The translations under genes were made by a program, and so were the position numbers. A stretch of DNA of 64,000 nt from assembly GCA_948567375.1 (NCBI GenBank), contig OX419760.1:12648001-12712000 (forward strand). Reading direction: 5' to 3'. Shown piece after piece: positions 10,190-64,000 of this stretch. Positions within the stretch are counted from its first letter, which is position 1; the number at the start of each line of letters is the position of its first letter. The notes beneath the pieces were generated by a model, which was not told the origin of the DNA, ran no database searches, and was given only the letters and a program-made list of their open reading frames with translations. The DNA comes from Lunularia cruciata (taxonomy: Eukaryota > Streptophyta > Marchantiopsida > Lunulariales > Lunulariaceae).

Positions 10190-10924
10190 TATAATACCAA
10201 GAGCTAGCCATATGATCTAGATGTGAAATTTGGTTTGGTAACATCTAGAATGATGTTATACATGATCGTCAAAATAGATTAGATAGAAATATCACCAAAA
10301 GAGTACTTCTACTAATAGGGCAAAAACCAATATGGACTTGAGAACCTTAGAACCAATAGCTAGATATATGATTTAAAGGTGAGAATTGGTTTGGTAACAT
10401 TTGGAAGGATGTTACACATGATGGACTAAACAAATCAGAAAGAGGTATCACCAAAAGGGGACTTCTACTAATAGAGTAGGAATTGAAATATTCTTGAAAT
10501 CTTTGAAGGCAATTTTGGAGGCCTAAACGGATGAATTAGGCCTCAAAAATATGTTGTGGCCCCCCCCCAACAAATGAAAGGCTAGCCTTCCCTCCTCCTT
10601 GGTTTGTCTCATTGAGAGCTTTCCAATGGTACCTTACGTGATTCTAAGACTCCTACAAGAAGATTCCCTAAAAGATTCCCTCCGGTCAAAGCTTGTTTGA
10701 CCAGCTAGATAGGACCTAGACCGACATGTCACCCATCCAAGTAAGTAATCCAAGGGTGGAGCTTGCTGACATGTCACCTATCTATGTGCCTAATCCTATG
10801 GTGGAGCTTCCTTGGAGGAGATCCTCTTTGTCTATATAATAAAGAGAAGGTGCTCCTTTGGGGCATCAAATGTTTGAGTGTGAAGTTTGTGATTTCTCTC
10901 TTCTCCTATCCTTGTAGTATTACA
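10190..10924 (+). mobile_element. Solo LTR, family C
   Basis: This 735-bp segment matches both LTRs of element C (42559-43302 and 48433-49178). It starts TATAATACC (family TGTAATACC) and ends TATTACA. The flanking 5-mers are TTAGC (10185-10189) and TCAGC (10925-10929), a target-site duplication with one C-to-T difference. Element B continues on both sides, so the LTR inserted into B and then lost its internal region by LTR-LTR recombination. Confidence 0.88.
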
Positions 10925-12120
10925 TCAGCCAGTGATATGTTTACAGTGGGAGTTGACCCAACCCCAATGTTCCGGTTGGCTGCCACGCTTTGTGAGAGTA
11001 GGGATGATGCGGTTCCTACTATTAGAGAAGAGGTGGTTGGTAGTGGAGCTGACTTGGTTAAGGAGCATGGGATCCGTTTAGTGACCAATGGTTTATGGCA
11101 GGCAACAATGGCTAGACTGGAGGAGTTGCAAGCTAGATTGACCTTACCGATGCTTACTAGTGTCAACAGTCAGAGGTTACCAGAAGGCCCTACTAGCAAA
11201 AATTTCCTTACTAAGGGCGCATGATCTAGAGAAACATGGGCATGTTCACTTGATGATTTCTGGATGATTACACGTGTTGGCCGAGGTTGGGTCTTCAAGA
11301 TCCTTGTTCTTGTGTGTTTTGGGAGATGTTATGGATACTACAACATCTTCAGGTCCATCAATCCATTTCTCTAGCTTACCTTTTGGAGAACATTCCTTTG
11401 ATGGGTGATTCTTGCACCAAAGTGGTGGTGAGTACACATCAGGTTCATTCTTGGATGGGACCTATTGTATTGTTAGATGCAGCCAAAGTGGGATCATGGG
11501 CTCATCGTCCTTGTCTTTGGTAGACAAACCTCTTACCTAGAGAGGTTTTACAACATTCTTATGATGGGATTCAACAACTTGACCACATCCTTGTTGATGA
11601 TATCTTGGATGTTGGGCGTCAGTCTCAGACTGTAGTAGTGGCTGATAGGTCACCTATGGCAGTGGTGAACCTAGTTGGATAGCCTAGAATTGCATTTTCC
11701 ACACTCATGAATTTCCCAAGCTCTCATGCTTTTTGAGAGGGAGGACTTGGACTTGTTTGGGACTCACAATTACAGTAGTTGGTGGAGCCCAACGCCAATG
11801 AGAGAGAGCGGGTAATGGGTTTTTGTATCGGTATTATCGCTGTTCTAGCAGTGTTAGAGGCATCCAAGCGTCAAGTGTTAGGTCAGGCTATGGACCTAAA
11901 TTTTTTGACATGGATTGTGGCTTGGCAGAGTAGCATAGGATTTGCTTGATAGGCATCACCACTCAGACACTTGTGAGCCTTGTGCCTATCGAGACGATTT
12001 AGGCACATGTTGAGGACAATGGACCAAGTGGACATGGTATTCTTGGGACATAGCTAGTAGCTACTAGGGAGAGTGGTCTACTTGGAGTCCATCCAAGTAA
12101 GCATGGGTTACTTGGATTAT

Positions 12121-12472
12121 TGTAAAAGACTGAATCCAAGGAGAGAAATAGGAGAATGGAAACTCACATTGGGACACTCAAATGAGAGAAAACTCCAAAT
12201 GCCTAGCATGAGCTTTGGCTTTGGTATTTATAGGTAGCATACAAGGCCCTTGAGAAGCTTCTCAAGAAGCTTCCTCAAGCCGCTTTCTTAGAGTGCAAGC
12301 CAAGTTAACTAGGAAGCCTCCTTTTAGAAGCTACTTACTTGAGTTGCAAGCTAAGCTAGCCGGGAAGCTTCCCAAGAAGCTTCCTAGATACTTTTGAAAT
12401 ATTCTAGGCTAATTTGTCTTATGTGCTATTGTGAGCTCAACTAACTTTGTCGCTAAACTCCATATTGTTACA
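12121..12472 (-). mobile_element. Solo LTR, family A, reverse orientation
   Basis: Reverse complement of the A LTR, 352 bp against 423 bp in the intact element. It runs from TGTAAAAGAC to TATTGTTACA on the plus strand. Flanks ATTAT (12116-12120) and ATTAG (12473-12477) form a near-perfect 5-bp target duplication. It holds four GAAGCTTC palindromes and lacks one of the ~60-bp modules of the young LTRs. It lies between the gag and RT remnants of element B. Confidence 0.88.
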
Positions 12473-15400: not shown

Positions 15401-15693
15401 CATCAAAGAGACTATATATATGTACAATAGACAACACCAATGACACTTGATGTTTCGACAGGCCGTACTATCTTGAGAGTGCATGAGGTTTGCCATTTGG
15501 GTCCTTGTGTTAGAAGGACATGATGATGTTATTTGGAAGGATTATGTGGGTAATTGTGTGCCATGCCACCTCCCAAACATTGATGGTTCTATGGATCCAA
15601 GCTTGGTACTTGTACGTGCAAGCTTGAGGTGTATGTTATGTGGCTCTTCTGGTGGAGTTGCTACTATGTTAGTGTGTGATAGTTGTTCAAGAG
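12481..15693 (+). pseudogene. Element B pol: RT, RNase H, integrase, half PHD finger
   Basis: Reverse transcriptase signatures are KVFSTLDLQAGYHQLLIREE (13080-13139) and YIDDILIYS (near 13297). RNase H signatures include LIIDHQPLKWLM (near 13932). Integrase signatures are LIDHGTKFLGEF (14857-14892) and a later stretch where the usual catalytic Glu is Lys (GLAKRVVQ). The C-terminal part reads CHLPNIDGSMDPSL and then CMLCGSS...MLVCDSCSR, i.e. CxxC...MLxCDxC, the first half of a PHD finger. The sequence is cut there by the A LTR at 15694. Stops, frame changes and the Glu-to-Lys change show it is inactive. Confidence 0.72.
15337..15420 (+). repeat. 28-bp tandem triplication inside element B integrase
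   Basis: Three copies of a 28-bp unit (TTTGATTTCATCAAAGAGAC plus 8 bp) start at 15337, 15365 and 15393. Because 28 is not a multiple of three, each extra copy shifts the reading frame. The first copy already carries a TGA in the ancestral frame. Confidence 0.9.
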
Positions 15694-16116
15694 TGTAACA
15701 ATATGGAGTTTAGTGACGAAGTTAGTTGAGCTTACGAAGTAGAGAATAAGACAAAATAGCCTAGAATATTCTAGAAGCATCTAAGAAGCTTCTTAGGAAG
15801 CTTCCTAACTAGTTAACTTGTGCCCTAAGCAGGTAGCTTCTAGAAGGAAGCTTCTAGAAGCTTCTAACTAGCTTAGCTTGCACGCCAAGTAGGCGGCTTC
15901 TAGAAGGAAGCTTCTTGAGAAGCTTCCTAGTTAACTTGGCTTGCACTCCAAGAAAGCGGCTCAAGGAAGCTTCTTGAGAAGCTTCAAGGGACTTGTATGA
16001 TACCTATAAATACCAAGGCCGAAGCTCATGCTAGGCATTCGGAGTTTTCCCTCATTCAAGTGTCCCAATGTGAATTTCCATTCTCCTATTTCTCTCCTCG
16101 GTTTCGGTCTTTTACA
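15694..16116 (+). repeat. Left LTR of element A
   Basis: Begins TGTAACAATATGG and ends GTCTTTTACA, directly before the primer-binding site. It contains about four tandem modules of roughly 45-65 bp rich in GAAGCTTC, a TATA box CTATAAATA (16004-16012), and a transcribed leader. Confidence 0.95.
15764..15985 (+). promoter_or_regulatory. Heat-shock-element cluster upstream of the LTR A TATA box
   Basis: Heat-shock factors bind alternating inverted GAA units (nGAAnnTTCn). Here GAATATTCTAGAA (15764-15776) is a perfect three-unit site and GAAGCTTCTAGAAGCTTC (15847-15864) a perfect four-unit site. GAAGCTTC itself occurs eight times, starting at 15785, 15797, 15847, 15857, 15907, 15919, 15966 and 15978. 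TTCTAGAA also occurs at 15838 and 15898. The TATA box begins at 16004. The same array lies in the right LTR (20984-21205). Binding is inferred from the consensus; by analogy, the Arabidopsis copia element ONSEN is heat-activated through LTR heat-shock elements. Confidence 0.65.
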
Positions 16117-16117
16117 T

Positions 16118-16129
16118 TGGTATCAGAGC
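16118..16129 (+). other. Primer-binding site, initiator-Met tRNA
   Basis: TGGTATCAGAGC, complementary to the 3' end of plant initiator-Met tRNA, lies one base after the left LTR of element A. Confidence 0.93.
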
Positions 16130-16138
16130 AGGAATGGG

Positions 16139-16354
16139 ATGGATGGAATTTATGGACCACCAAATCCACTTCCGCCAAACCATTGGGACTTTCATGTCCA
16201 GATATTACCAAAGCATCGTTTCACACAGTTCATCACCTCACGCTTTGGGCAGGATTTTCTACATATGATCACCGTGTCAGAGGAACCCTTGATACTTCCA
16301 GTTGTGACTTATGGAGAACGGTGGACGTGTTGTATCTATGTGTTAATCAACTAG
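16139..16354 (+). CDS. Leader ORF upstream of gag, element A
   Basis: A 71-aa ORF in the transcribed leader between the primer-binding site and gag. It contains NPLPPNHWDFHVQI, SRFGQDF and EEPLILPVVTYGE. Related sequence occurs in the same place in element C: ORF 43443-43652 has NPLILPVVIYE, and 43669-43872 has NPLPSN and RNFGEEYYQ. Conservation between two diverged elements suggests a peptide or a shared leader function, but I do not recognise the family. It may act as an upstream ORF that lowers gag initiation, or be the fossil of an upstream part of gag. Confidence 0.5.
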   Translation: MDGIYGPPNPLPPNHWDFHVQILPKHRFTQFITSRFGQDFLHMITVSEEPLILPVVTYGERWTCCIYVLIN

Positions 16355-16387
16355 ATAAATTGAGGGTAGTGGATTAGGGTAGTAGCA

Positions 16388-17287
16388 ATGGCCGCAATAC
16401 CGGATGTTATCCTTGCAATGCAACAACAAATCGAGCATCTTACTTGATTGTTGGATGAACGAGACCAGCAACGGCGAGAACAGATAGACAGAGCGCCAGT
16501 TCGAGATGGAGAAGATCGCATTCGATTTCCGAAACCCAAGGTGTTTGAAGGCAAGAATGTTCCAGGCACAGTGGAAAATTTTGTGTTTGACTGTGAACGT
16601 TACTTTGAAGCCACCAATCTTCAAGACGAGCGGAAACAAATTCTCTTGGCTTCTAGCCAGTTGGATGGCGTGGCAAAACTTTGGTGGCGATTCCGAGTAG
16701 AAAGAGCTGAACGACAAATTGTTACACCAATTTTGACATGGGCAGAATTCAAGGATGCAATACTTGGTCGATTTCAGACTATAAATGCCACCAGAGCTGC
16801 ACGAGATAAATTGGCGGAGTTGAGGCAGATTGGTTCGGTGAGAAGCTACATCACACAATTTCAGAATATCATCATGCAAATTCCAGATATCCAAGAAGGT
16901 GAAGTTCTGGATCGATTTGTGCGAGGATTGAAGTCACGAACCAGATTGGAGGTGACCATGCGAGAGCCACAGAACGTAGAAGAAGCCATGCAATTGGCTG
17001 AGCGTTTTGATTCCTTAGTTGCAACAACTTGGTCTCGACCTCGACCTACACAAAACCTACCCGTACCACGAGTGGAAGAACCGGTACCAATGGAGATTGA
17101 TGCTATCCAGCAAAGACCACTTGGCACAGCAGATAGAGAAAGATTACGACAAAATGGAGGTTGCTTTTATTGTCACCAGTTGGGGCATCGCATTGCTGAA
17201 TGTCCACTCAAGAATGGACAACCTCGACAAGTTGCCCAAGTGGAGGTTGTGGAGCGGAATGATCCGGGAAACGAGGAATCCCAGTAG
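16388..17287 (+). pseudogene. gag: Element A gag
   Basis: Capsid/nucleocapsid protein, 299 codons from ATG 16388. The retrotransposon gag domain (about residues 60-200) includes LDGVAKLWWRFRVERAE and FVRGLKSRTRLEV. A CCHC zinc knuckle CFYCHQLGHRIAEC lies near residue 258. A TGA at 16445 (codon 20) interrupts it and is consistent with a CGA-to-TGA mutation. The rest (16448-17285) is open. It ends in CAG TAG inside the 5' arm of a stem-loop, with pol continuing in the -1 frame. Without the early stop the gene would look intact. Confidence 0.9.
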
Positions 17288-20200
17288 GAGATTTCGAGCC
17301 GCCTACTGGGAGCTTGATTAGTTCCAATGGGATTGAAGGCTCGATCTATGCAAGTTTGCTTCACTTGCAAGGTATGATATCTAATCGGGGTTGTAGAATT
17401 TTGGTTGATTCTGGAAGTTCAAAGAATTGCATGTCTATGCAAGTGGCAAAGGAATTGGGTATTCCTATCAGGCCAGTGATTGGAAGTAGTTTGATGATGG
17501 CGGATGGTAGAAAGGGTTCTGCATTCCGCACCTTGCATCCTGTTACCTTCAAGATTGGGAAGGAGTATTTGGAGTGTATGAGGTTCGTAGTGGCACCTCT
17601 ACATTATGATATCATTCTAGGTCTACCTTGGCTTGAATGTCATAAGGTTCAATTTGATTGGACCCGACACCAAATTCAAGTACAACACCAAGGTAGGAAT
17701 TTCCGATTAGGTTGTCTGGCACCTTTGAGTAAGACACCTAAGAATAGTCAGTCCCAAGATGGGAAGTTTGTCGAGAAGGTAGCCATAGAGCAAATCTGGA
17801 AGGGAGATGAGTCCCAAGATGGGAAGTTTGCCAGGAAGGCAACCATGGAGCAAGCTTGGAAGAGAGATGAGTCCCTAGAAGGGAAGTTTGTGAATGAAGC
17901 AGCCATAGAGCAAGCTTTGGAGGACGATAAGTCTGTATTCGCGGTGTGGATCAAGCCGATTGCACAAGAACAATCTGAGGAGGGCCAAGTGCCGCATCAA
18001 GCAATGGTTGATCGGATAGTTCAGGAGTTTGCAGATGTGTTTCCGGATGATCTGCCAAAGGGATTACCCTCCGATCGAGGTATGCCCTTCAAGATCAAGT
18101 TATTGCCAGGGAGTACTCCAGTGAGTAGACCAATCTATCGGCTCTCACCAAAGGAGTTGGAGGAGTTGCGAACAACACTTACAGAGTTGTTGGAGAAGGA
18201 TTTCATACGACATAGTACCTCTCCGTGGGGAGCACCGGTACTATTTGTTCCAAAGAAGGATGGAGGACTTCGTTTCTGTATTGATTACCGTGGGCTCAAT
18301 AAGCAAACCGTGAAGAATGCATATCCCTTGCCTCGGATCGATGACCTGCTTGATCAACTAAGAGGAGCACGCTACTTTTCCAAGCTGGATCTTCGTAGCG
18401 GCTATTGGCAAATTCCTATTGAAGGAGAGGATGTGCAAAAGACTGCTTTTCGCACAAGGTATGGACATTTTGAGTGGAGAGTTCTACCTTTTGGACTCAC
18501 TAATGCTCCAGCAGTCTTCATGGATCAGATGCATCGAGTGTTGGAGGGACTATTAGATCAGTCCGTGGTGGTGTTCTTAGATGATATCTTAATCTATAGC
18601 AGGACAGAGGCAGAACATGTGAATCATGTGCGAGAAGTCCTAAGATGACTACGACAGTGGAAATTTTACTGCAAGAAGTCAAAGTGTGCTTTTTGGCAGA
18701 AGGAGGTTACCTTCTTGGGTCATAAGATCTCATCAGAGGGGATCAAGATGGAAAAAGAGAAGATCAAGGCCATTACTGATTGGCCTACCCCGAAGGATGC
18801 TACAGAAGTACGAGCATTCAATGGACTGGCCAATTTTTATCGACGGTTCATCCACTATTATGCTCACGTGGCTGCACCATTGACTGACCTCTTGGGAAAG
18901 AACTCGAGCTTCCAGTGGACCACCAAGCATGAAGAAGCATTCCAGAGGTTAAAGCATATGGTGTCTTCAAGACCTATTCTTCAACCATATGATCCTCAAC
19001 TACCTTGTGTGGTTGATTTTGATGCTTCTAACTTTGCAATTGGAGCTGTGTTGCAACAAGAATTTCCAGATGGACTACATCCAATTGCCTTTGTGTCTCG
19101 CTGACTAAATACAGCGGAAAGAAATTACTCTGCTCGGGATCGGGAACAACTTGCAATGGTATATGCCACCAAGGTATGGAGGCATTATCTCTTGGGGAAA
19201 CAAGTGATCATGCGAACTGATCACAAGCCATTGTTGCAGACCTTACACCTAGAGCACATGAAGAGTCGACATCATCGATGGGAAGAGCAACTCCAATTGT
19301 TCGACATCAAACTTGAGTACAAACCAGGTCGGTTCCATGTCATCCCTGATGCTCTATCACGACGACCTGATTTGAAGTCTCTTCCTCTCATCACGGCAGC
19401 AATTACAACGGTGTCAATTGATCCCAAGATTCATAACGAGTTTCGGTTAGCCCTACAGCAAGATCCCTTCTTCCAAATGGTACACGGTCGTCTAACAGCA
19501 CGCGACAAGGAGTACAACACCTTCTCCTTCAAGGAAGGCCTTTTATTCCATGCAGACCAGATCTATGTTCCAACCAAAGGTGATCTTCAACTTGTGCGCC
19601 TTCAAGAAGCCCATGATTTACCAATAGCTGGTCACATGGGAGTGGACAAGACCTTGGGCACCCTCCAACGCCAATGGTGGTGGCCCAACATGACACGAGA
19701 TGTTCGAGACTTTGTCCGATCATGTGAGAGTTGCCAACGGAACAAGGCCAGCAACCAGAAGCCGAGTGGACTCCTTCAACCACTCGCCATTCCATCCGCT
19801 CGTTGGGAGCATGTGAGCTTGGATCTCATCACATCCTTGCCAAAGACAAAACAAGGACACACGGCAATTGTGGTGTTTGTGGATAAGCTTAATAAGCAAA
19901 TCCACTTGGCACCAACCTGTGATACCGTGGATGCTCCAACCTTAGCACAAATCTACTTTGACAATGTCTTCAAGCATCATGGGATGCCACGTGTACTCAT
20001 CTCCGACCGTGATCCTCGATTTACCGGGAAGTTTTGGCAAGCACTCTTCCAGATGCTCGGCACCAAGCTTGCTTTGTCCACGGCCTATCATCCTCAAACT
20101 GATGGACAAACCGAACGCGCCAATCGAACATTGGAGGATATGTTGCGGGCCTTTGTCAATGTCCACCATACCAACTGGGATGAATGTCTTGCAGCTGCAG

Positions 20201-20838
20201 AATTTGCCTACAACAATTCCAAACAGGCAAGCACTGGATTTTCTCCCTTCTTTCTCAATTTTGGCCAAGATCCGCTTGTTCCAGATTCTCTTCTTGCTCC
20301 CCCTCCCTCTCAGGTTCCTCATACTTCTACATTCTTGACCACTATATCCCAATCTCTCCAACAAGCCAAATCTCACCTCCTTGTTGCTCAGAATCGCCAA
20401 AAACAATATGCAGACCATCATCGTCGTGATCTCACCTTTGAAGTTGGTGATAAAGTCATGTTGTCCTCTAGTAACCTCCCTCTCCCACTTGATACCCAAG
20501 TTCGTAAACTTGCTCCTAATTGGATAGGACCCTTTGATATCACCCACATTATCTCTCCTGTTGCTTATCGTCTTGCCTTACCTTGTCACATGCGTATCCA
20601 TCCTGTCTTTCATATTTCCAAGTTGAAACCCTTTGTTCCTAACCCTTCTTCCTTTTCCTCTCGAGTCCAACCTCCCCCTCTTCCTGTCCCTATCAATGAT
20701 CATGAGGAGTACGAAGTTGACCGTATCCTTGCGCGTCGCCATATTCAACGAGGCCGTCACCAACATACGGAGTACAAGGTCCTTTGGAAAGGGTATCCCC
20801 TTCATGATGCTACATGGGAACCTCTTTCTCACCTCTAG
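17263..20838 (+). pseudogene. pol: Element A pol: protease, RT, RNase H, integrase, chromodomain
   Basis: One continuous frame with two in-frame TGA codons (18646-18648 in RT, 19102-19104 in RNase H) and no indel. In order: aspartic protease [10 protein letters not shown] (near 17404), [12 protein letters not shown] (near 18271) and FLDDILIYS (near 18574), RNase H VDFDASNFAIGAVLQQE (near 19012) and TDHKPLLQTL, integrase HHCC zinc finger (GHMGVDKTL...CESCQRNK, 19632-19749), core LDLITSLP, ISDRDPRF and GQTERANRTLED holding the D-D-E triad, and a chromodomain at the C-terminus (EEYEVDRILARR...YKVLWKGYP...WEP, 20704-20823). The chromodomain places it among chromoviruses. Both stops fit CGA-to-TGA. 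Pol is entered in the -1 frame relative to gag. Confidence 0.92.
17266..17344 (+). promoter_or_regulatory. Candidate -1 ribosomal frameshift signal, element A gag-pol
   Basis: Gag is in frame 2 and pol in frame 1. The -1 frame is open only after TGA 17260-17262 and gag ends at 17285-17287, so any shift must occur in that short overlap. GGGAAAC (17266-17272) lies in it with the correct phase (CCG GGA AAC, i.e. X XXY YYZ). After 6 nt follows a 10-bp perfect stem, TCCCAGTAGG (17279-17288) with CCTACTGGGA (17302-17311). Loop bases TCGAGCC (17294-17300) can pair with GGCTCGA (17338-17344), giving an H-type pseudoknot. Element C keeps the stem and the spacing. Confidence 0.75.
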
Positions 20839-20913
20839 AATGCACAGATGGCCATCAAGGAATTCGAAGCTTCACTGGCGACGAGGACGTCACCAACTAG
20901 CGGCGGGGGAATA

Positions 20914-21336
20914 TGTAACAATATGGAGTTTAGTGACGAAGTTAGTTGAGCTTACGAAGTAGAGAATAAGACAAAATAGCCTAGAATATTCTAGAAGCAT
21001 CTAAGAAGCTTCTTAGGAAGCTTCCTAACTAGTTAACTTGCGCCCTAAGCAGGTAGCTTCTAGAAGGAAGCTTCTAGAAGCTTCTAACTAGCTTAGCTTG
21101 CACGCCAAGTAGGCGGCTTCTAGAAGGAAGCTTCTTGAGAAGCTTCCTAGTTAACTTGGCTTGCACTCCAAGAAAGCGGCTCAAGGAAGCTTCTTGAGAA
21201 GCTTCAAGGGACTTGTATGATACCTATAAATACCAAGGCCGAAGCTCATGCTAGGCATTCGGAGTTTTCCCTCATTCAAGTGTCCCAATGTGAATTTCCA
21301 TTCTCCTATTTCTCTCCTCGGTTTCGGTCTTTTACA
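20914..21336 (+). repeat. Right LTR of element A
   Basis: Identical by eye to 15694-16116 except TTGCGCC where the left copy has TTGTGCC. Downstream sequence is a different element fragment, and no target duplication is visible. Confidence 0.95.
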
Positions 21337-21923
21337 ACATCCTTCTTTGGATGGATATCTAGGAGTGCCATGATGCGTAAGGAAATAGCCTTGCAACCTC
21401 AAAGTGTAACTACTCCAAATTAATATGGACTAAAGTGCTCTTGGAAGTGAGATTGATGCTAAAGGACAATGGTATGGCTAACCAAGCACAAAAATATCTC
21501 TTCAATAGCAATCAGTCCAATGCCTCCCATGCCTTTCTCCATCACAAGAAGTTGACTAGCCGCTAAAACCCTACTAACTAACATAGAAATATCTCTTCTC
21601 GCTATTGCTATAACCACTTGAAATAGCTTGGTAAATCCACTAGGAGGATCATCTACCTAAAAGTAATCTATGAGATGCTCATAGATCATCCTTGACAAGC
21701 CTCCTAAGAAGAGGCAAGAGGTAGTGCATAATGCTAGTGCAAAAAGCAACCTATCAAGACATACAAGTTGCTCAGGTTGATAATCTATGATATCTAATGG
21801 TACTTCATCTCCTACCATGGGATATAGTGAGCATAGAGAAGAGATAGTCTCATCAATGGCACTAGCTATAGATAAATGGTGTAGCGCTTGTGTTGCTCTA
21901 CTAAACTCTCCCACTTGACCCAA
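21337..21923 (-). pseudogene. Non-LTR-like reverse transcriptase fragment 1
   Basis: On the minus strand this reads GFTKLFQVVIAIARRD, VLAASQLLVMEKGMGGIGLI (GGIxxIAI-type RT motif) and then FGVVTL...GCKAISLRIMALLDIHP. The segment 50105-51600 holds the corresponding QFAIATLGGCEIVITSIRAS motif, so both belong to one family. The sequence is interrupted by TAG, TAA and TGA codons and is cut at 21336 by the right LTR of element A, which lies exactly at the RT reading frame. It probably derives from a non-LTR retrotransposon, judged from motif order only. Confidence 0.5.
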
Positions 21924-38084: not shown

Positions 38085-39540
38085 TTGAGTATGTTCTCAA
38101 AGAGTTTGGAGGCAATTTTGTAGTATATTCTAAATTGGTAAGGAATTGAAGAGAACAATAAAATAGCTTATATTTGGCAATTTTGGCATTTAGATGTTTC
38201 AAGCACATTGGTTGTTGGCTTTAGAGTCTAAAGTTAAAAAGACAACTTAGCTAAAGTTGAAAAGACAACTTAGCATAGTGTTCTTGAGGTAATGGAGCCA
38301 AGAGTTTGGGGGCAATTTGGTGTAGGTATCACAAATTGGCTAAGATTTTAGAATGCCAACAAAATATATTACATTTTGCTCATTTTTGTACTTAGAGGCT
38401 TCAAGCATAATAAGTATTGGCTAGAGAGGGTAAGACTAGCAAGCAAACTTGGCAAAGTATCCTTGAATTAGCACATTAAAAGTTTTAGAGGCAATGTGGT
38501 GGAAATACATTAAATTTGTAACAATTCTATGATGATAACAAAGTGGGTTTACATTTGCTTCACTTTGGATTTAGAATTTATGAGGACAATAGTTGTTAGT
38601 TAGAGAAGCCAAATAGATAAGGATTTTGGTATGACAACAAGATGTACTATATTTGGCTCATTTTGATCTTTAGAGTATTGGTGTAATACTCCGAGGATAG
38701 GAGACCTTAAGAGAAACACACCATGAGAAACACACACTTTCACACTCAAACTCCGATGCCCCAAAGGAGCACCTTCTCTTTATTATATAGGCAAAGCAGA
38801 TCTCCTCCAATGAAGCTCCACCATAGGATTAGGTACATAGATAGGTGACATGTCAGCAAGCTCCACCCTCGGATTACTTACTTGGATGGGTGACATGTCG
38901 GTCTAGGTCCTATCTGGTTGGTCAAACAAGCTTTGACCAAAGGGAATCTTTTAGGGAATCTTCCTATAGGAATCTCAGAATCATGTGGGTGAGGTACCGT
39001 TGGAAAGCTCTTGAGAGACAGAGCAGGTGGAAAGAAAGCCAAGCTTTCCTCTATTGAGGGGAGGAAGTATACACATTTTCAAGGCCTAATTCATCCGTTT
39101 AGGCCTCCAAAATTGACTTCAAAGATTTTAGGCATATTTTGGTTCCAACTCTGTTAGTAGAAGTCCCCTTTTGGTAATAACTCTTTCTGATCTATTCATT
39201 CCATCCTGTGTAACATCCTTCCAAATGTTACCAACCCAATTCTCACCTTCAAATCATATGTATAGCTATTGGTTCCAAGGTTTTCAAATCTATTTTGGTT
39301 TTATGCACTATTAGTAGAAGTACCATTTTGGTGATACTTATATCTGATATATTTTGACCATCATGTATAACATCATTCTAGATGTTACCAAACCAAATTT
39401 CACATCTAGATCATATGGCTAGCTCTTGGTATTACAAACGGAGCATATAGATTGTTAGCTAGAAAGGCTATACCTTACTAATGTTTGTTGGTTAGAGATG
39501 TTAAGGCTAGAAAGCTACCTTCTTCTTATCTTAGCAGATC
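38085..39540 (+). repeat. Degenerate ~180-200-bp tandem repeat, split by a solo LTR
   Basis: Three diverged units start near 38090, 38280 and 38460. Each reads TTTGGAGGCAATTT-like, then AAATTGG...TAACAA, a TTACATTTGGCTCATTTTG-like block, CTTAGAGGCTTCAAGCA-like, and GTTGGCTAGAGAGG-like. A further partial unit continues after the solo LTR at 39437 (GCATATAGATTGTTAGCTAG). The unit length is near that of plant centromeric or subtelomeric satellites, but only about three units are present and they are strongly diverged. Confidence 0.55.
38682..39436 (-). mobile_element. Solo LTR, family C, reverse orientation
   Basis: A 755-bp reverse-strand match to the C LTR, from TGTAATACTCC to GGTATTACA on the plus strand. 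Flanks ATTGG and AACGG agree at three of five bases, a weak target duplication. The insertion splits a unit of the ~180-bp repeat. Confidence 0.85.
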
Positions 39541-42558: not shown

Positions 42559-43302
42559 TGTAATACCAAGAGCTAGCTATATGATCTAGATGTGAAATTT
42601 GGTTTGGTAACATCTACAATGATGTTATGCATGATGGTGAAAATAGATAAGATAGAAGTATCACCAAAATAGTACTTCTACTAATAAGGCAGAAACCGAA
42701 ATAGACTTGAGAACCTTAGAACCAATAGCTAGACATATGATTTAAAGGTGAGAATTGGTTTGGTAACATCTAGAAGGATGTTACACATGATGGACTAAAC
42801 AGATCAGAAAGAGGTATCACCAAAAGGGGACTTCTACTAATAGAGCAGGAACCGAAATATGCCTGAAATCTTTGAAGGCAATTTCGGAGGCCTAAACGGA
42901 TGAATTAGGCCTCAAAAATGTACAGATCCCTCCCCCCTCTCAATAGACTAAAGGCTGGCTTTCCCTCCCCCCTGCTCTGTCTCGTCAAGAGCTTTCCAAT
43001 GGTACCTTACTCACGTGATTCAAAGATTCATATAGGAAGATTCCCTAAAAGATTCCTTTCGATCAAAGCTTGTTTGACCAACCAGATAGGACCTAGACCA
43101 GACATGTCACCCATCCAAGTAAGTAATCCAAGGGTGGAGCTTGCTGACATGTCACCTATCTGTGTCCCTTATCCTATGGTGGAGCTTCCTTGGAGGAGAT
43201 CCTCTTTGTCTATATAATAAAGAGAAGGTGCTCCCTTGGGGCATCAAATGTTTGAGTATGCAATCTGTGTTTTCTCTCTTCTCTTGTCCTTGGAGCATTA
43301 CA
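42559..43302 (+). repeat. Left LTR of element C
   Basis: Begins TGTAATACCAAGAG and ends GAGCATTACA. It contains two related ~120-bp modules about 156 bp apart, each with the inverted repeat TAACATC...GATGTTA (42608-42627 and 42764-42783) followed by TATCACCAAAA and ACTTCTACTAATA. A TATA box TATATAA lies at 43211-43217. Confidence 0.93.
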
Positions 43303-43905: not shown

Positions 43906-44994
43906 ATGGATCTGCAGTTGCAAGAGCTGGTGCAAGCAATACAAGGGATGTTGAATGAATTTCGAGAGATTAAGATGACCATGGAGACATTACAAAGTCA
44001 AGTGCAGATCCTCAGGAACGATCAAGCCATGCAAGAAGAAGAGCCATCTCAAAACCCAGTACCTGCGACTGAAGTACTTGGAGAGGCACCCGGGCCTATA
44101 AACCCTATCAACGATGAAGCCACATTGCTACTCTGGATGAAGAAGACCTGCAACATTGAGCCTTACAAGGTGCAGCGTACAATGGGAGTAGTGGAAAATT
44201 GAATCTTGAGAATGAATCGATATTTCCGATTGTTCTCAACAGAGATCACAGAGCATGTTGTAGGCATGTTTGCATGTGGGTACTTGACCAATAAAGACCT
44301 CACATGGTATGATGCTTGGGAACAATCCATGTTGGCAAAGAGAAGAAAGGTCACATGGACAGCAATGCAAGAAGGACTACTAAAGAATTTCCAATCAATG
44401 GATTTTGTGCGGATGGCTCGAACCCGACTATGGGGATTGAGACAGAAGAATACCATACAAGAGTATGTGGAGGCATTTTTGTATCTACAAGTCACAATTA
44501 CCGACATGAGTCAAGCTGAGGCTCTCGACAATTTCAAACGAGGGTTGAAATAGCGGATTCACCAAGAAGTCATTGTGCAAAATCCTTGCACGGTATTTGA
44601 AGCCATTGCTTGTGCGTAGAGAATAGCAGGAGCATTAGGTGGAGGTGAAGGAGTAGTTCCACCTCAACATTATTGGGCAGAAATGCTACACATGGGTGGA
44701 CTAGTACCAATGGAATTGGGCAACCTACGATTCTGGGATCAAGGAGCACGACCGCTTCAAGGGGAGTGGGGACGGGTAGAAGAACAAAGAGATGGAGTCC
44801 CATGAGGAGAAGAGACTCAAGGAGAACAACTCTATTGTTACAATTATGGCTATATTGGGCACATATCTACCAATTGTTGCACTTGTTTCCCTAGAGGCCA
44901 TCGGCCTTTGCACAGACGATCTTTGAACAACATGGAGAGGCTCATTGAAGAAGAGGAAGTAGAAATCACTTCAGAAAACAAAGATCGCCAGTAA
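43906..44994 (+). pseudogene. gag: Element C gag
   Basis: Starts at ATG 43906 (MDLQLQELVQAI). The gag domain includes WTAMQEGLLKNFQSMDFVR and AEALDNFKRGLK. The zinc knuckle reads CYNYGYIGHISTNC, so the second Cys of CCHC is Tyr. In-frame stops are TGA 44200, TAG 44551, TAG 44618 and TGA 44803. The natural end is CAG TAA (44989-44994), inside the 5' arm of a stem. Pol follows in the -1 frame, as in element A. Confidence 0.85.
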
Positions 44995-47900
44995 ATGTAC
45001 CTTGTGGCCTTACTGGCTCAATAAGGAAGCAGAGAAGCGAGGGAAGGAAGAAGAATAAGGTGCAAAGATCCCGGAAGGTAACCTCACAATTGATTGTCGT
45101 GAATGGAATCCTAGAAGGTAATCAAGTGAGAGTATTAATTGATCTGGGAGCAACAGAGAATTTCTTGTCTTGCTCTATTGCAATAAGATTGGGAATGGAT
45201 CTAGAGAGAGATGGAAGTGAAGAAGTAGAGTTACCAAATGGGCAAACAAAGAGGATTGAAGCATTACCTAGACGGGTAACACTCTTTATAGGAGAATATC
45301 AAGAAGCAATTGAGTGGCAAGTGATACAGTTAGCTCGTTATGATGCAATTTTATGCATGCCATGGAAAGAGCAGTACAACCCTATGGTGGATTGGAGGAA
45401 GAAAGTAGTGAGAACCCACCAATGGTCAATCATTGGGGTTAAAGAAAAATCACACAGGCAGAAACTGCCTCTATATGTTGTAAGGACGGCAACTATCTGT
45501 AAGACCGATAGATGTTTTATGGGTCTAATAAGAGAAGTCCAAAGTGCACAACTCAATGGAAAAATTCTTGAGAAATTGAAGGATGTGGTGGATGAGTTTC
45601 AAGATGTCTTTCCCGATGATCTACCCTCAAGATTACCACCAAAAAGGCGAGTAGATCACAAAATATAGACACTCCCGGGGAAGACACCGCCTTGTAAGGC
45701 CCCATATTGCCTATCACCTCATGAGTTGGAGGAGTGTAAGACTCAAATTGAGGAGATGCTGCAGAAAGGGTTCATCCAACCTAGCGTATCACCATATGGG
45801 GCCCTTGTCTTGTTTGTGAAGAAGAAAGATGGTACAATGTGCATGTGCATTGACTTTTGGGGTCTCAATCAACAAATAGTGAAGAACAAATACCCCTTAC
45901 CTCGCATGGATGACCTATTTGATCAACTCCATGGAGCAAGATACTTCACCAAACTGGACTTGTGGAGCGGGTACAATCAAATCCAAATTGCAGAGGAGGA
46001 TGTGTACAAAACTGCCTTTTGAACTAGGTATGGCCACTTTGAGTATCTTGTGATGCCTTTTGGCCTCACCAATACACCTGCCACTTTCATGAGTCTAATG
46101 AATGACATATTTCGTCCATACTTGGATAAGTTTGTTATTGTCTTCTTGGATGATATCTTAGTATATAGTAGCACGATGATAGAACACAAACAACATCTAC
46201 AAGAGGTCTTCCGGATTCTAAGACAGAATCTGGTGTATGCCAAAATCTCAAAGTGTGAGTTTGGCAAGTCTGAAGTAGACTACTTAGGGCATAGAGTAAG
46301 TGCAGAAGGCATTCAAGTATTGATAGATAAAATAGAGGTCATTCAAAAATGGAGTGCCCTAGAAGATCAGACTCAACTTAAGAGCTTCTTGGGGTTGACG
46401 GGATCTATCGTAGATTTGTCAAGGACTTCTCCAAGGTTGCACACCCTTTAACGGCACTACTTGGCAAGGAGAAGAAGTGGACATGGGGAACTGCACAAGA
46501 ATTGGCCTTTCAAGAATTGAAGGCCGCCTTGCTACATGCACCAATCTTGAAGTGGTATGACCCAAAACGTCCAATCAAGCTGGCTATAGATGCATCAAGC
46601 GTAGCAATAGGAGCAGTCCTACAACAAGAGTGGCATGATGAATGGCATCCAATTGCATATTTCTCTCAAAATTTGTTACCAGAAGAGCGCAACTACCACA
46701 TGATAGAACGAGAAGAGCTGGCCATCGTTCTAGTAACCAAGCATTGGAAGCACTACTTGGGCGAGAAGGCATTTGTAGTCGAGACAGACCACAAACCTCT
46801 AGTCTATCTCGAGACACAGAAGGATCTATCTTGTCATCAAATTTGGTGGGTAGAGTGGCGACAACGCTTCAACATGACAATCACCTACATGGAAAGTAAG
46901 AAGCAACTTGCAGATGCATTCATTTGCATGCCAATGGCCAACAACTTGGTGGCAGAGGTTAAAAATTAACCCTGAATTTTGGCAAGAGATTCTGGCTGCT
47001 ACAAAAACTGATCCACAGATTGTAGAAGCACAATCATCCAAGGGTGTCACCACCACCCAAGGACTCACCTTTCGGGATGGCAGATTATGGATCCCAAATG
47101 TCCCAGAACTACGCACCACTATTCTAGCGGAATGTCATGATTTGGCCATGGCAGCTCATGTCGGAGTGGACAAGACCTTGGAGGCAATCAAGCGCCATTA
47201 CTATTGGCCCAAGATGAGCAACAACGTGATGGACTATGTGCGTAGCTACCTACTTTGTCAACAGAACAAAGCTTCTAATCAAGCTCTTGCAGTGCTCCTT
47301 CAACCTCTCCCCACTCCTACCCAATGTTGGGAACAAGTGAGTATGGATCTCGTTTGTGAATTACCAAAGACCACCTCAGGGTTTGACTCCATTGTGGTCT
47401 TTGGGGACCGGCTCAGCAAAATGATTCATGTACGCCCTACCACCAAGGAGGTGACCGCTCCACAACTAGCTCAATTATACTTAGATGCAATCTTTGCTTA
47501 CCATGGCTTGTCTAGAATACTCATCACCGATAGAGGCACCCAATTCACCCGTTTGTTTTGGCAAACACTCTTTGGTTTCTTCAAAACCAAGTTGGCCATG
47601 TCCACAGCTTACCACCCACAAATAGATGGCCAAACAGAGCGGGCTAATCGCACGATTGAAGACATGTTACGCGGCTTCACCTTAGAAGAGCAAAAGAGGT
47701 GGGACACCCTACTCCCATTGGTGGAATTTGCTTACAACAATTCAATGAATGCATCCACCCAAGTCACTCCGTTCTTCCTCATGTATGGTGAGCAACCCTT
47801 CACACCTTCTAGCTTGATGAAGATCCATCCAGTGGCTACCAAGGTCGATGCAATCAACACATTTGTTTCTAGAATCCAACAAGGTGTGGAGAGCATCAAG

Positions 47901-48432: not shown

Positions 48433-49178
48433 TGTAATACCAAGAGCTAGCCATATGATCTAGATGTGAAATTCAGTTTGGTTACAGCTAGAATGATGTT
48501 ATACATGATGGTCAAAATAGATCAGATAGAAGTATCACCAAAAGAGTACTTCTACTAATAGGGCAGAAACCGAAATAGACTTAAGAACCTTAGAACCAAT
48601 AGCTAGACATATGATTTAAAGGTGAGAATTGGTTTGGTAACATCTGGAAGGATGTTACACATGATGGACTAAACAGATCAGAAATAGGTATCACCAAAAG
48701 GGGGCTTCTACTAATAGAGCAGGAACCAACATATGCTTGAAATCTTTGAAGGCAATTTTGGAGGTCTAAACGGATGAATTAGACCTCAAAAATGTGCAAA
48801 TTCCCCCCCCCCCCACAAAATAAAGGAAAGGTTGGCCTTCCCTCCCCCTACTTTGTCTCGTCAAGAGCTTTCCAACGGTACCTTACTCATGTGATTCTGA
48901 GATTCCTACAAGAAGATTCCCTTAAAGATTCCCTCCGGTCAAAGCTTGTTTGACCAACCAGATAGGACCTAGACCAGACATGTCACCCATACAAGTAAGT
49001 AATCCAAGGGTGGAGCTTGCTGACATGTCACCTATCTATGTCCCTAATCCTATGGTGGAGCTTCATTGGAGAAGATCCTCTTTGTCTATATAATAAAGAG
49101 AAGGTGCTCCCTTGGGGCATCGAATGTTTGAGTGTGCAATCTGTGTTTTCTCTCTTCTCTTGTCCTCAGAGCATTATA
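48433..49178 (+). repeat. Right LTR of element C
   Basis: Matches 42559-43302 with a few dozen substitutions and a poly-C tract near 48806-48820. It ends GCATTATA where the left copy has GCATTACA, a C-to-T change of the terminal CA. Confidence 0.93.
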
Positions 49179-58586: not shown

Positions 58587-61408
58587 TTACTTGAGTGCAA
58601 AAGGATTTCCTTCAAGGTCTGCAAGTTGAATGGACCCAATTTCATAAAGATGAAGAACTTGATAAGGCCCGATCCATCTCAAATGCAGCTTGCCTGGAAA
58701 AATTATTTGGCAATTGTCGTATAACAAAACCAAATCTCTTTCATGCACAATCACAGGCTTGATATGCTTATTGTGCCTGACTTTCCTTTGCTCTTGTACT
58801 TCTTTTGTGGTTTGTATTGCATTGTCTCTTTTCTCTTCTAACCACATTAGTTTATGGATCCAAAGATCATGGCTTTCTTCCTCCAACAATCATTTTTTGC
58901 AAAGAATCAGATATGTCGGTACTTCAAATTCAACTGGTAGTATGGGATGCAAGCCGTTTGTCAAGAAGTATGGAGTTTGTTTGGTTGTGATCTTTTCTGT
59001 CATTTGATATGCCCACAACGCGGCTGGTAATTTTGTATCCCAATCATATGCATAATTGACAATGACCTTATTCAACATTTTGCAAAGTAACCCATTTGCC
59101 TTTTTTGTTAAGCCATTTGCTTTTGGGTTATAAGGAGTCATCTTCCAATGTTTAATCTGGAAGTACTTTGTTAACGCCTCCATCACAAAGTTCAAAAAAT
59201 GTGTCCTTTTGTCACTAACCAATTTTAGAGGACACCCATATTGGGAGATGATGTTTTAAAAGAAAAATTCCGCCACGGTCTCGGCATCATCTCTGCAAGT
59301 TGCTTCAGCTTTGACCATCTTGGTAGCATAGTTAGTGCAAACCAAAATGTATCTCTTCTTTGTGACTCGAGTCACTTGTTGAATGGGACCCACAAAATCA
59401 ATTCCCCATTTCTCAAATGGGGCCAAGGATAAAATTGGTCTCAAACGCCATTGAGAAGTAGCCATCGGCTTCCCCATTCTCTGATAAGCATCACAGCTTC
59501 AAATATGGGCATGCGTGTCTTTGTACATCGTAGGCCACCAGTACCCCAAGGAAAGAATCTTCTTTACAGTATTCTTCAAAGCATAGTGTCCTCCTAATGC
59601 TTTGGAATGTAAAGACTTGATAACGCTTCCGGCATTGTATGACTCCAAGCATCGCCAAAGTACTTTGTCTTCGCCCATCTTGAATAAAATGTTGTGTTTT
59701 AGCTGATAAAGCCTCATTTTCCTGAGAAAGACTACACTCTCCTTTGGGTCCAGCCCTTCATGACAATGGAGAGTATGCAGATAATGATATTTGGCTGCAT
59801 ACCTTGTACTTTGCATTGCTATTAATTGATATAACTCTTCATTAGGGAACCGATCATCAATTTCCCATTTCTGGTCTTGAGTTTCTAACCTGGACAGGAA
59901 GTCCTCATTCAAATGTGAAGCTCCATTCCTTACTTGTACAGTATATGTGAATTCTTGTAACAACAAGATCCATCTTGCAATTTGCCTGGACAAATCTGCC
60001 TTCTTGACCAAATGTTGCAATGCGTAATGGTCAACATAGAAGACAAACTCGTATCCCAACAGGTAGTGGTGAAATTTCTTGCAGGCATATACCATTCCGG
60101 GTACTTCTCTTTCAATCATTGAATAGTTCTTTTTGGAAACTAAAAGTTGTCGGTTGGCATAATACATCGAGTAATCCTTCTTCTTCTCGTCCTTCTGACT
60201 TAAGACAACTCCAATTTCCATGGACAAAGTGTCCACATATACATGAAAAGGGATGTCCCAATTCGAGGCCCTCATGACTGGTGCTTTAACCAGTTTCTTC
60301 TTCAATACCTGGAATGCCTTTTTTTGATCTACTTCCCATAGGTAGTCTTCGGATTTTCTTTAGAAGCTTTGTAAGGGGTGCAGCAAGCACCACATAGTTT
60401 GAAATGAAGCGTCTATAGTATCCGACATGTCCCAAGAAGGCTCTCAGCTCTCAAATAGCTTTGGGGATTCCAAAGCTAAGATTACTTTGACCTTCTCGAC
60501 ATCGACTTCAATACCTTAGCTTGACACCCGATGCCCCAAAAGAATTCCTTCCTTCATGGCAAAGAAGCATTTCTCAAGGTGTTATGAAAAACTGGCAAAA
60601 CGACACCTTTCAAAAGTTTGGCAAAGGTAATCCAAATGTACATCTCTTTGCCCAAACACACAAAAATGATCAATGAAAACTTCCACAAATTTGCGCATGA
60701 AATCCTTGAAGATTGAATTCATCATCCGCTGGAAAGTAGCAAGAGCATTACACAACCCAAAGGGCATTTGATTGCCTTTTGGGTTGTGTAAGCAAAAGTG
60801 CCCCAATCGGTCGTGAATGTGGTTTTATCCTTGTCCTCTTCTTGGATGGACATTTGATTGTATCTTGAAAATCCATCGAGAAAACTATAACAAAGGTGAC
60901 CAACTACTTGGTCCAAAATTGTATCAATAAAAGGCAAGGGATGATGATCCTTCCTTGTGACTGCATTCAACTTGTAGAAGTCTTGGCACACTCGGATCTT
61001 CCCCGTTTTCTTCTTTGGGACAATGACAATGGGGAAGACCCACTCACTTCTTAAGATGGGAAAGATTATTCTAGCCCCTAAGTACTTGTCAATTTTGTCT
61101 TTCACCAAGAGGGAGTACTTTGGGTTCAAACGGTATTGTCTCTGCCAAACTGAAATTGCACTTTCAACCAGATCAATTTGGTGTTCTCCAAATTCTTGTG
61201 GAATACTTGGTATTTGATCAATAGACCAGGAAAATACATCTTGGAATTCTATAAACAAGGCAGTGTATCCTAACAACTCCTCCGAAGTGACTATCTTCAA
61301 AATTTTCAAAATTTTCCCTTCAATCAAGACAACATCTTGACAGTAATTGAGGTTGATCACTCCTTTAATGTGGCTTGCTCCACTTAATTTGAGGCGAGCT
61401 GCCATCAA
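58587..61408 (-). pseudogene. pol: Element D pol: RT, RNase H, integrase
   Basis: RT: VFPIVIVPKKKTGKIRVCQD (near 60995-61054) and YSFLDGFSRYNQMSIQEEDK. The catalytic box reads FIDHFCVFG, with one Asp replaced by His. A frame change lies near 60790. RNase H: VYVDTLSMEIGVVLSQKDEK and YVDHYALQHLV (60305-59900). Integrase: GHYALKN...SCDAYQ zinc region where the last Cys is Tyr, core IDFVGPI, LVSDKRTHF, and YNPKANGLTKKANG where the catalytic Glu is Lys. In-frame stops are TGA near 59480, TAA near 59240 and TGA near 58890. The C-terminal region (LLYDNCQIIFPGKLHLRWIG) is the GPF/Y-like module, and no chromodomain follows. It is inactive. Confidence 0.85.
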
Positions 61409-61785
61409 ACCTCATTCCTCTAAGTCAGGTTCACCCAAGGCAAGGTCATATGGATCTTCATCTTCAACATCCACCTCGTAGCATTCCAAGTAATTGACTG
61501 GGACTTTGTTTGAGGATTTGTCTGAGGACAAAGACGATGAGTCTTTGGATTCATCCTCATCTTCTGACAAACTAGTTTCCCCGAGATGAGGAACCTTTGT
61601 CCAACTCACAGTCACCATCTTCTGGTCTTTGGACAAAATGTCCTTGAACCGTAGCTTCTACTGGTGCCAATCCACCACAACTTGGGCACTATACAACCAG
61701 GGTCTTCCGATCAACAGAGGGTAGCCAATTTTGGTCATTGGTCGCAACACAATGTAGTTCAATTTGAAGGGCACTCCTCCAATGA

Positions 61786-62135
61786 TCATGGTAATATTTG
61801 ACAGCATGCCCAAGGATTGTCTCCTGGTTTGGTCTGCAAATTTGAATACTCCGGTGTTGGTTCAAACGTATGATACCCTAGTCGATTTGCAGTATCCTTG
61901 GTCATGACATTCACAAGCGATCCCAAATCAATGGGTATGGATGTGATCGTGCACCCGACAATCTTTGCATCAACCTTGAGAGATCCCAGATCATCTTGTC
62001 CAATATGGTATATGGCGGATGGTCTTTTTTGGACATCAACCTTACTTTCTTGAGGGCCGAATTCAGCTGCCTCTTGTACATTCTGTTGTCTTCCCACAAT
62101 TGCTTAAATGTGATGTTTGCATTTGTGGTTGCCAA
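61786..62135 (-). pseudogene. Element D aspartic protease region
   Basis: Contains IPIDLGSLVNVMTKDTANRL, the (I/L)DxGS protease active-site region found in Athila/Tat-type elements, near 61880-61945. The frame shifts relative to the upstream block (61911-62135). The interval 61412-61636 encodes an acidic linker (EDEDESKDSSSLSSD) toward RT. Confidence 0.65.
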
Positions 62136-62326
62136 ATCTGCTACAATATTGTATTGGGTACTCCTTCCAATTTCACCATCTTTGCCTTTAGCTTCGGGTT
62201 CAAAGTCTCTCCATGTTCAAATTTGACTTTGGGACGCTTCAGAATGGTGATAGGATTGCTAGTGGTCTTGACCCGAGGTTCTTCAGGTTGGCCCACCTTG
62301 GCTTGGATTAGACCCTTCACTTTGGA

Positions 62327-64000
62327 TCAGATGTCTGCCAGAAAAACTGGAGGCTTCGTCTTTGTCTCCTCTTCCAAACTCATTTCCCGAGTCCTGAGTA
62401 TTGCTTCCTTGAGTTCTTTCTGCAAGGCTTTAGCTTTGGCTTTAGCGAGGATCTTTTCCTCCTTGGCAGCAAGGATTGCTTTTGGGCACAATCTCTCTGC
62501 CTTTTTGGAAGACAATGAGGTCGTACTCAATTCTTTGGGATCACGCTTCTTCTTACTTGTGCGTGTCTCAACTTTCAAAATTTCAAGGTCTGGCCATTCT
62601 CCTTCCAAGGCCGGACTCCCTTCTTGAAGCCTTTCCTCCTCAAGTGTTATAAAATTTATATTCATATCACCCTTTGCTTGAAGCGCTGCACGCTCAGCTA
62701 GGGTTTGTACATACTTTACAAGCAGCTTTGGGTTCTTTGGGTGAGGGCATTGGTTGCTTGTATGACCCAATCCTTTGCAATTTCCACACAAGGGAACGTA
62801 CCAAATTTGCCTTCTTGGCTCTAGACAGTTTGGAGACCAATGTCCCATCGAGCCACAATTATAACATGCCCCGGGTGTCACATTTTGAGGTCAATTTTTG
62901 TTGCTCATTGGTGGTCTTTGTGGAGGAGCATTGAGGTTATACTCCTTTGGTCCGTACCTCGGACCTTGATACGATGTGCTCGCTTGAGGCTGTACCTCTT
63001 GAGTTTGGTACATCGCCTCTTCTTCCTCTTCTTGGTTCCATCCCGGAACCCAATCAATCTGCTACACCAGGAATGCATTGCGAGTATTGCATTCCGTGTT
63101 TGCATGGCCTAACTTGCCACATGTGGTGCACCATACAATGGATCTGCCAAATGATGGGGGCTTCCTTTGGTCCTTTGCCCCAATCATCTGGATCTTAAAA
63201 TCCAAAAACTCCTTGATGAGGGCGTCCAACTTAGTATCAGCCTTATGTGCAATCTTCACTGGGGGACTCACTGGTTTCTTACCCCCACATCTTTCTACTC
63301 GTCTTGGCTTTGATTCTTCTTTGGATTCCAAAGAAGAGCTTGAAGACATGGAGGATTCCTCCAAAGAAGGGGATGTACTACGAGAAGCTCTCCTTCTGGG
63401 CTTCTTGCCTTTCTTCTCTTGGTTTCTTTGATTTCCGGCAGAGTGAGAGTGAGCCGCCTCATAGTGGGCGACATGTTTGAGTACTTTTTCAAGGGAAGTT
63501 ACATTCCTCTCCCTTGCAAAGATCCAAATCTCTAGTGAAAGTCCTCCCAAGAACCCGGCGATGGCTTGGGCATTGGAGTAACCCACCACACCCGATTGCT
63601 TTGGAACTTGGTTCAAGAGCACCATGAACCACTCAGATCAACTTCTCCTTCTTGCCTCTGTCCAAATCATTGAGTGCCGCAAAGACACTTGTGTCGTAAT
63701 CAACTTCACGGAATCGTTCCAAGAAATTGTTTCTCAAGTCTGCCCAATCTGCCAGAACAAACCCCTTCTGGGTTACATGAGTGTATCAACTCTGAGCTTT
63801 CTTTTGGAGCAGACTTGGGAAAATGCATAGTCAATCCACCAAGTCATGCTCCTTGTTAGCAAAGGAGATGACTTCAAATTCTTCAATGAATTCATTGGGG
63901 TCTTCATCTTGTTCTATCCCCTTGTACTTTTGATAGGCGTGTTGGGTGACAAGCAACAAAATCATTGTTTGACTTGATGGGATTGGCTGGGGTAAGTTTG
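62327..64000 (-). pseudogene. gag: Element D gag, N-terminus beyond window
   Basis: Minus-strand gag domain with DPNEFIEEFEVISFANKEHD and LADWADLRNNFLERFREVD (63745-63955). A Ser/Arg-rich linker follows (RRRASRSTSPSLEESS). There are three CCHC knuckles: CTTCGKLGHANTEC (near 63100), CYNCGSMGHWSPNC (near 62845) and CGNCKGLGHTSNQC (near 62765). A Lys/Ala-rich coiled tail ends at 62327. In-frame stops include TAG 63062 and TGA near 62895. Three knuckles are more than the one or two usual in plant gypsy gag. The start lies beyond 64000. Confidence 0.78.

Follow-up and report, generated by a model that had tools for sequence, protein, structure and literature searches.

Introduction

Retrotransposons with long terminal repeats (LTRs) need far more Gag than Pol, and many of those found in plants have a single open reading frame (ORF). 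According to a 2025 review, plants, animals and yeast use two main strategies, namely frameshifting and a short Gag transcript made separately; its plant examples are of the second kind (PMC12786077). Here we analyse the gag-pol junction of a chromodomain-bearing Ty3/gypsy retrotransposon (hereafter the first element), which spans positions 15694-21336 of a 64,000-nucleotide stretch of DNA (the window; contig OX419760.1, positions 12,648,001 to 12,712,000, forward strand) and carries a candidate programmed −1 ribosomal frameshift signal. A complete signal of the retroviral type in an apparent plant chromovirus, with traces in its relatives, makes a compact and testable case.

The closest described system is PEG10, a mammalian gene derived from a Ty3/gypsy element. 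As described in PMC2800197, it resembles the first element in having GGGAAAC in the gag/pol overlap, a protease soon after, and a 3' pseudoknot beyond a short spacer, but differs in the length of the spacer (5 nt versus 6 nt here) and of the overlap (61 nt versus 25 nt here), and in being a cellular gene. PMC5009743 lists G_GGA_AAC as one of the heptamers on which mammalian ribosomes are most prone to shift. The same article recounts a 2003 survey in which pol was in −1 in 28 of 51 animal LTR elements, many of them with a heptamer near the gag end, two traits that the first element shares; among the plant elements of that survey, as told there, separate frames occurred in two types only, each having pol in +1.

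Among plant chromoviruses, beet members of the Tekay, Reina, CRM and Galadriel groups are reported with gag and pol in one ORF (PMC3605345), and the Selaginella chromoviruses that PMC3350952 describes as intact also have one ORF, one of them carrying a group I chromodomain, so that single ORFs occur outside seed plants too. In the account of PMC6317226, the majority of plant groups have a single ORF, and two ORFs occur in some. These one-ORF chromoviruses share with the first element the Ty3/gypsy domain order, a methionine-tRNA primer site and, in most cases, the chromodomain, and differ by their single ORF. The −1 signals of retroviruses and coronaviruses share with the first element, a retrotransposon, the X_XXY_YYZ heptamer, the short spacer and the H-type pseudoknot, which is predicted here. 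The pseudoknot of infectious bronchitis virus combines a long stem 1 with a long loop 3, as does the one predicted here. Our literature search, which mostly did not cover subscription papers and is thus no proof of novelty, found no recognisable report of a plant chromovirus with a −1 signal. Frameshifting by −1 with GGGAAAC and a pseudoknot is already known from PEG10 and is apparently little known in plants.

The gag-pol junction of the first element

The gag gene (16388..17287, plus strand, like the other parts of the first element and of the second element's junction) runs from an ATG at 16388 to a TAG at 17285-17287. The pol frame (17263..20838), which encodes protease, reverse transcriptase (RT), RNase H, integrase and a chromodomain, is in −1 relative to gag and, taken from stop to stop, is open from 17263, leaving an overlap of 25 nt (17263-17287). 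The heptamer G_GGA_AAC (17266..17272) lies in this overlap and is read CCG GGA AAC in the gag frame, that is, in X_XXY_YYZ phase. It is followed by a 6-nt spacer, GAGGAA (17273..17278), and by stem 1, whose 5' arm (17279..17288) includes the gag stop and forms 10 perfect pairs with the 3' arm (17302..17311). Inside the loop of stem 1, the 5' arm of stem 2 (17294..17300) is perfectly complementary over 7 pairs to 17338..17344, completing a predicted H-type pseudoknot with loops 1, 2 and 3 of 5, 1 and 26 nt. Frames, phase and spacer are observed directly, and the helices are known as complementary stretches. An earlier note on this DNA had claimed a pol frame in −1 with this same overlap, and an in-phase GGGAAAC with this spacer, the 10-bp and 7-bp pairings and these loops; all of it was confirmed, down to the coordinates. 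The junction thus combines a zero-frame heptamer within the overlap, a downstream ORF in −1 and a potential structure after a short spacer.

It is highly probable that the junction is a programmed −1 ribosomal frameshift signal that has evolved to set the ratio of Gag to Gag-Pol in a chromodomain Ty3/gypsy element, most likely one of a green plant. Most ribosomes would read gag across GGA AAC and terminate at TAG 17285, yielding Gag. The pseudoknot 6 nt ahead would halt the ribosome with GGA in the P site and AAC in the A site, and a slip back by one base would exchange GGA for GGG and AAC for AAA, reading then continuing in the pol frame. The product would be Gag fused to Pol, which supplies protease, RT, RNase H and integrase. 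Formation of the knot, slippage at the site and the rate of slippage are here what we infer. The window copy itself could not produce the full Gag-Pol, because its gag is broken by one in-frame stop at 16445 and its pol by stops at 18646 and 19102.

The pairing downstream of the heptamer is observed to be improbable by chance. The two strands of the window contain 282 X_XXY_YYZ heptamers in which Y is A or T and Z is any base but G, and we scored their downstream pseudoknots by the number of pairs; the site at 17266 came first with 17, the next having 13. The 130 nt downstream were then shuffled 1000 times with dinucleotide composition kept, and with Watson-Crick pairs only, no shuffle gave a stem 1 of at least 10 pairs or at least 17 pairs over both stems. 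When G-U pairs were allowed in stem 2, 6 of 10,000 shuffles equalled the total and 1 of 10,000 gave a stem 1 of at least 10 pairs. These tests ignore the added requirement that the heptamer stand in the right phase within the 25-nt overlap. The knot-free fold of 17273-17350 (−26.5 kcal/mol), roughly the RNA ahead of a ribosome that occupies the slip site, includes all but 2 of the 10 pairs of stem 1; the stacking sums of −22.0 and −15.8 kcal/mol exclude loop costs and are a rough guide only. Rfam gave no match at the gag-pol junction, nor any in the window at gathering scores.

A conserved tail at the end of gag

A search with the gag of the first element returned 3 homologs, and a profile of these four sequences led to 43 listed homologs, at least 8000 candidates having been scored. 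We observed that 18 of these 43, with 36-62% identity to the gag of the first element, end in the tail [GE][NK]xx[SPT]Q, a proportion that is not the share among all relatives since the search was restricted by protein length. The first two positions are EN in 16 tails, GN in one and GK in one, and the last two are PQ in 11, SQ in 6 and TQ in 1, the Gln being present in 18/18, while the two spacer residues vary freely (9 and 8 different residues). The distance from the zinc knuckle to the gag end is 35 to 58 residues in the 17 of the 18 with a matched knuckle, and elsewhere in the last 60 residues of these proteins, none of 972 positions shows the pattern.

Read on the RNA, the tail would consist of the slip codons, two spacer codons and two stem codons, followed by the stop within the stem. 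The second base of Ser, Pro and Thr codons (AGY serine excepted) is C, which corresponds to the second pair of stem 1, and the Gln codon and the stop are constant because both form the middle of this stem. The tail could thus serve as a protein-end signature, [GE][NK]xx[SPT]Q-stop, for finding more such signals.

The second element of the window

A second, more decayed element lies at about 43.2-48.5 kb of the window, 61% identical to the first in one RT piece and 47% in the integrase. Its gag frame contains 5 stops, the final one included, versus 22 and 12 in the other frames, and its pol frame contains 2 versus 34 and 32; pol is again in −1 relative to gag (gag in frame 1, pol in frame 0). 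The gag ends TCA GAA AAC AAA GAT CGC CAG TAA, with A_GAA_AAC (44973..44979) in the place of the slip heptamer. The 5' arm of stem 1 (44987..44994) holds the gag stop TAA (44992-44994) and forms a perfect 8-bp stem with 45010..45017, and stem 2 (44996..45005 with 45055..45064) has 10 bp, 2 of them G-U. These two strongest helices of 44978-45110 together make an H-type pseudoknot. None of 2000 shuffles reached its total and 5 of 2000 reached a stem 1 of at least 8 pairs; the site was fixed by the gag tail, and the stem had already been seen by eye before the shuffle test.

Stem 1 has the same register in both window elements. The earlier note had proposed to look for covariation, and in this one relative with DNA that was compared, 2 of the 10 pairs of stem 1 show double changes that keep them paired, 6 are unchanged and the 2 end pairs are lost. 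The compensatory changes are observed. In particular, the second element has Arg rather than Ser, Pro or Thr before the Gln, with a G at that place and the stem partner changed to match.

The two window elements also bear on other ways to obtain Pol. An ancestral readthrough of the gag stop, the −1 relation being secondary, could be suspected from the Gln before the stop in both of them and in all 18 tail-bearing homologs. However, the gag frame closes again 9 codons on in both window elements while pol is open in −1, so that readthrough cannot yield pol; we regard this explanation as extremely unlikely. Alternatively, pol could be begun separately, by re-initiation after the gag end. The first pol-frame AUG of the first element (17374) lies shortly past the gag stop and ahead of the protease motif DSGS, so that the active site would be retained, and judged by sequence alone this copy could re-initiate there. 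In the second element, however, the pol frame has no Met before the protease motif, and the called pol ORFs of the close relatives P0014, P0021 and P0023, whose longest contigs measure 10-59 kb, begin behind it, a weak argument since gene callers choose the starts. Re-initiation would moreover leave the heptamer, the stem and the gag tail unexplained, and appears very unlikely.

Distant relatives and the weight of the evidence

Viral contigs, searched with a piece of pol and with the gag and pol alignments, gave no DNA relatives, and bacterial and archaeal assemblies gave no match to the gag alignment. The pol alignment detected seven loci with a Ty3-like pol in the latter assemblies (L001-L007), presumably eukaryotic contamination; the contigs of L001-L005 lie in assemblies that bear the names Cohaesibacter, Nitrospirae, Trichormus and Methanosphaera. 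In L001, L002 and L003, pol is in −1 and the gag end reads CCG GGA AAC, CAG GGA AAC and CCG GGA AAC, respectively, the in-phase GGGAAAC being located at the gag stop or one codon ahead of it. In L004 and L005, the zinc knuckle, protease and RT regions are in a single ORF, and L006 and L007 are uninformative on the junction.

The earlier note had named relatives with gag and pol in one frame as one of the findings that would refute a frameshift signal. The second element and L001-L003 have pol in −1 and the 18 tail-bearing gags stop at the equivalent codon, but fused relatives do exist: P0140, P0141 and P0159, L004 and L005, and rows of a seed-plant-type clade described below are single-ORF or gag-protease-fused, all those seen being more distant. 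The junction is conserved in relatives, the DNA compared being that of one moderately related element and of three distant ones, with the structure unsupported in L003. These data also bear on the possibility that gag and pol once formed one ORF and that a small indel in a decayed copy split the frames, the heptamer and helices being there by chance. The first element is indeed decayed, and the fused or single-ORF proteins and loci just named would fit such a history. Yet the equivalent stop codon in 18 of the 43 listed homologs, the same −1 relation in the second element and L001-L003, and the rarity of shuffles as good (6/10,000) speak against an indel, which we consider very unlikely indeed.

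Several observations nevertheless weigh against a frameshift signal. The first element has three in-frame stops. The knot-free minimum-energy folds of 17255-17350 (−33.3 kcal/mol) and of 17273-17380 (−36.6 kcal/mol) both lack stem 1. The second element departs from the pattern twice, by its A_GAA_AAC and by the Arg in its tail, and 16 of the 18 tails have Glu-Asn and thus no perfect X_XXY_YYZ site. The frame relation and the stems of the 18 tail-bearing relatives were deduced from protein ends. The downstream knot is weak in L001 and L002 (11 and 14 of 1000 shuffles as good, respectively) and unsupported in L003 (109 of 1000). The protein searches return only limited lengths relative to the query, so that a complete single-ORF Gag-Pol could not be listed. 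Finally, 25 of the 43 listed gag homologs lack the tail, many of them more distant by score; one, P0128, is fairly close (44% identical, 7 member sequences) and ends directly after the knuckle. This protein and the tail-less P0145, P0154 and P0163 appear truncated or disrupted, and P0140, P0141 and P0159 continue into the protease. On balance, geometry, shuffles, gag tails, the second element and L001-L003 support the frameshift signal proposed in the earlier note, and it looks real and old, as several relatives keep traces of it. Those of the note's own checks that were carried out mostly favoured it.

Six of the 25 tail-less gags (P0142, P0143, P0144, P0147, P0158 and P0161, all more distant) end in [GK][NK], where the last 60 residues of the 25 proteins themselves would predict 0.42, the pattern having been noticed post hoc in non-independent sequences. 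Such ends fit slip codons at the extreme end of gag, as in the DNA of L001 and L002.

Phylogenetic position and host

Ty3/gypsy chromoviruses are recognized by the order gag, protease, RT, RNase H and integrase and by a chromodomain (PF00385) at the integrase end, all found in the first element; the label "chromovirus" given in the earlier note is supported by this chromodomain. A further protein search, in which at least 8000 candidates were scored, listed at least 120. In the RT tree (109 rows, 90 of them without a frame label; bootstrap not fully settled), the first element joins P0030 and P0011 (100/98), then a group with Klebsormidium nitens P0072 and further relatives (100/95), L001 with P0081 branching next outward (99/88). 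It lies outside a 53-row clade (100/100) of the seed-plant single-ORF type, which holds 12 of the 14 rows that a motif rule labelled fused and whose named rows examined are seed plants. The tree does not place the second element. Clustering of the frame labels on this tree was not shown, since the labels fused and −1 need 3 changes each and were matched by 30 and 29 of 500 label shuffles, respectively.

The first element has a 12-nt primer binding site, TGGTATCAGAGC (16118..16129), beginning 1 nt past the 5' LTR, which we take to be of the initiator-methionine tRNA type of green plants. Its chromodomain presumably keeps Tyr-Trp-Tyr at the positions of the HP1 aromatic cage. The word "plant" in the earlier note rests on the type of this primer site and on the relatives. 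According to PMC6317226, plant chromodomains with an HP1-type aromatic cage are limited to non-seed species. Together, the primer site and the cage suggest a non-seed plant host. The majority of the Tcn1 clade is described in the same article as self-priming, without a primer site complementary to a tRNA; the first element, with its primer site, does not show this trait, which is a majority trait only, and our tree contained no Tcn1 reference.

More speculatively, an entire chromovirus lineage of non-seed plants, green algae among them, might rely on a single conserved site for −1 frameshifting. Its members would then mostly use N_GAA_AAC, which puts a Glu codon in the P site and would function thanks to the stem that contains the gag stop. 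Such frameshifting would be ancestral: the neighbouring L001 would have it in common with this lineage, as would Ty3/gypsy relatives like the ancestor of PEG10, and the other plant chromoviruses, with their single ORF, would have lost it later. We hold this scenario to be possible but rather doubtful, and rate it lower because of the single-ORF Selaginella chromoviruses (PMC3350952) and the unclustered frame labels. The type of site found in the Glu-Asn relatives is possibly new. If these members do shift, theirs would be a further type of site, akin to the G_GA exceptions that PMC5009743 lists for insect flaviviruses and for some umbraviruses and dianthoviruses.

Other features of the two elements and of the window

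The LTRs of the first element are 99.8% identical; the 5' copy (15694..16116) measures 423 nt and has the form TG...CA, and the 3' copy occupies 20914..21336. Their flanks, AAGAG at 15689-15693 and ACATC at 21337-21341, form no target-site duplication despite this identity, and the missing duplication may reflect recombination between copies. The start of gag at ATG 16388 was judged from the gag frame and from the homolog P0001. The gag protein matches PF03732 and PF19259 (capsid domain), and its CCHC knuckle was seen by eye. The Pfam domains of pol were searched as three stop-free pieces. Between protease and RT, the pol frame contains imperfect tandem repeats (17750-17933) with a 60-nt step and 79% identity over 124 nt, which by eye are three degenerate copies of a 20-residue unit.

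On the minus strand, 12120-12472 is about 84% identical to the LTR of the first element and is perhaps a solo LTR. The second element has LTR-like stretches at 42559-43300 and 48433-49176, and further LTR-like copies at 10192-10912 and 38728-39439 are 88-92% identical to the latter; internal duplications of about 157 nt are present. The minus strand carries a third Ty3-like element, also decayed, at 58620-63637; one knuckle and one RT piece of this element share a frame, unlike in both others.

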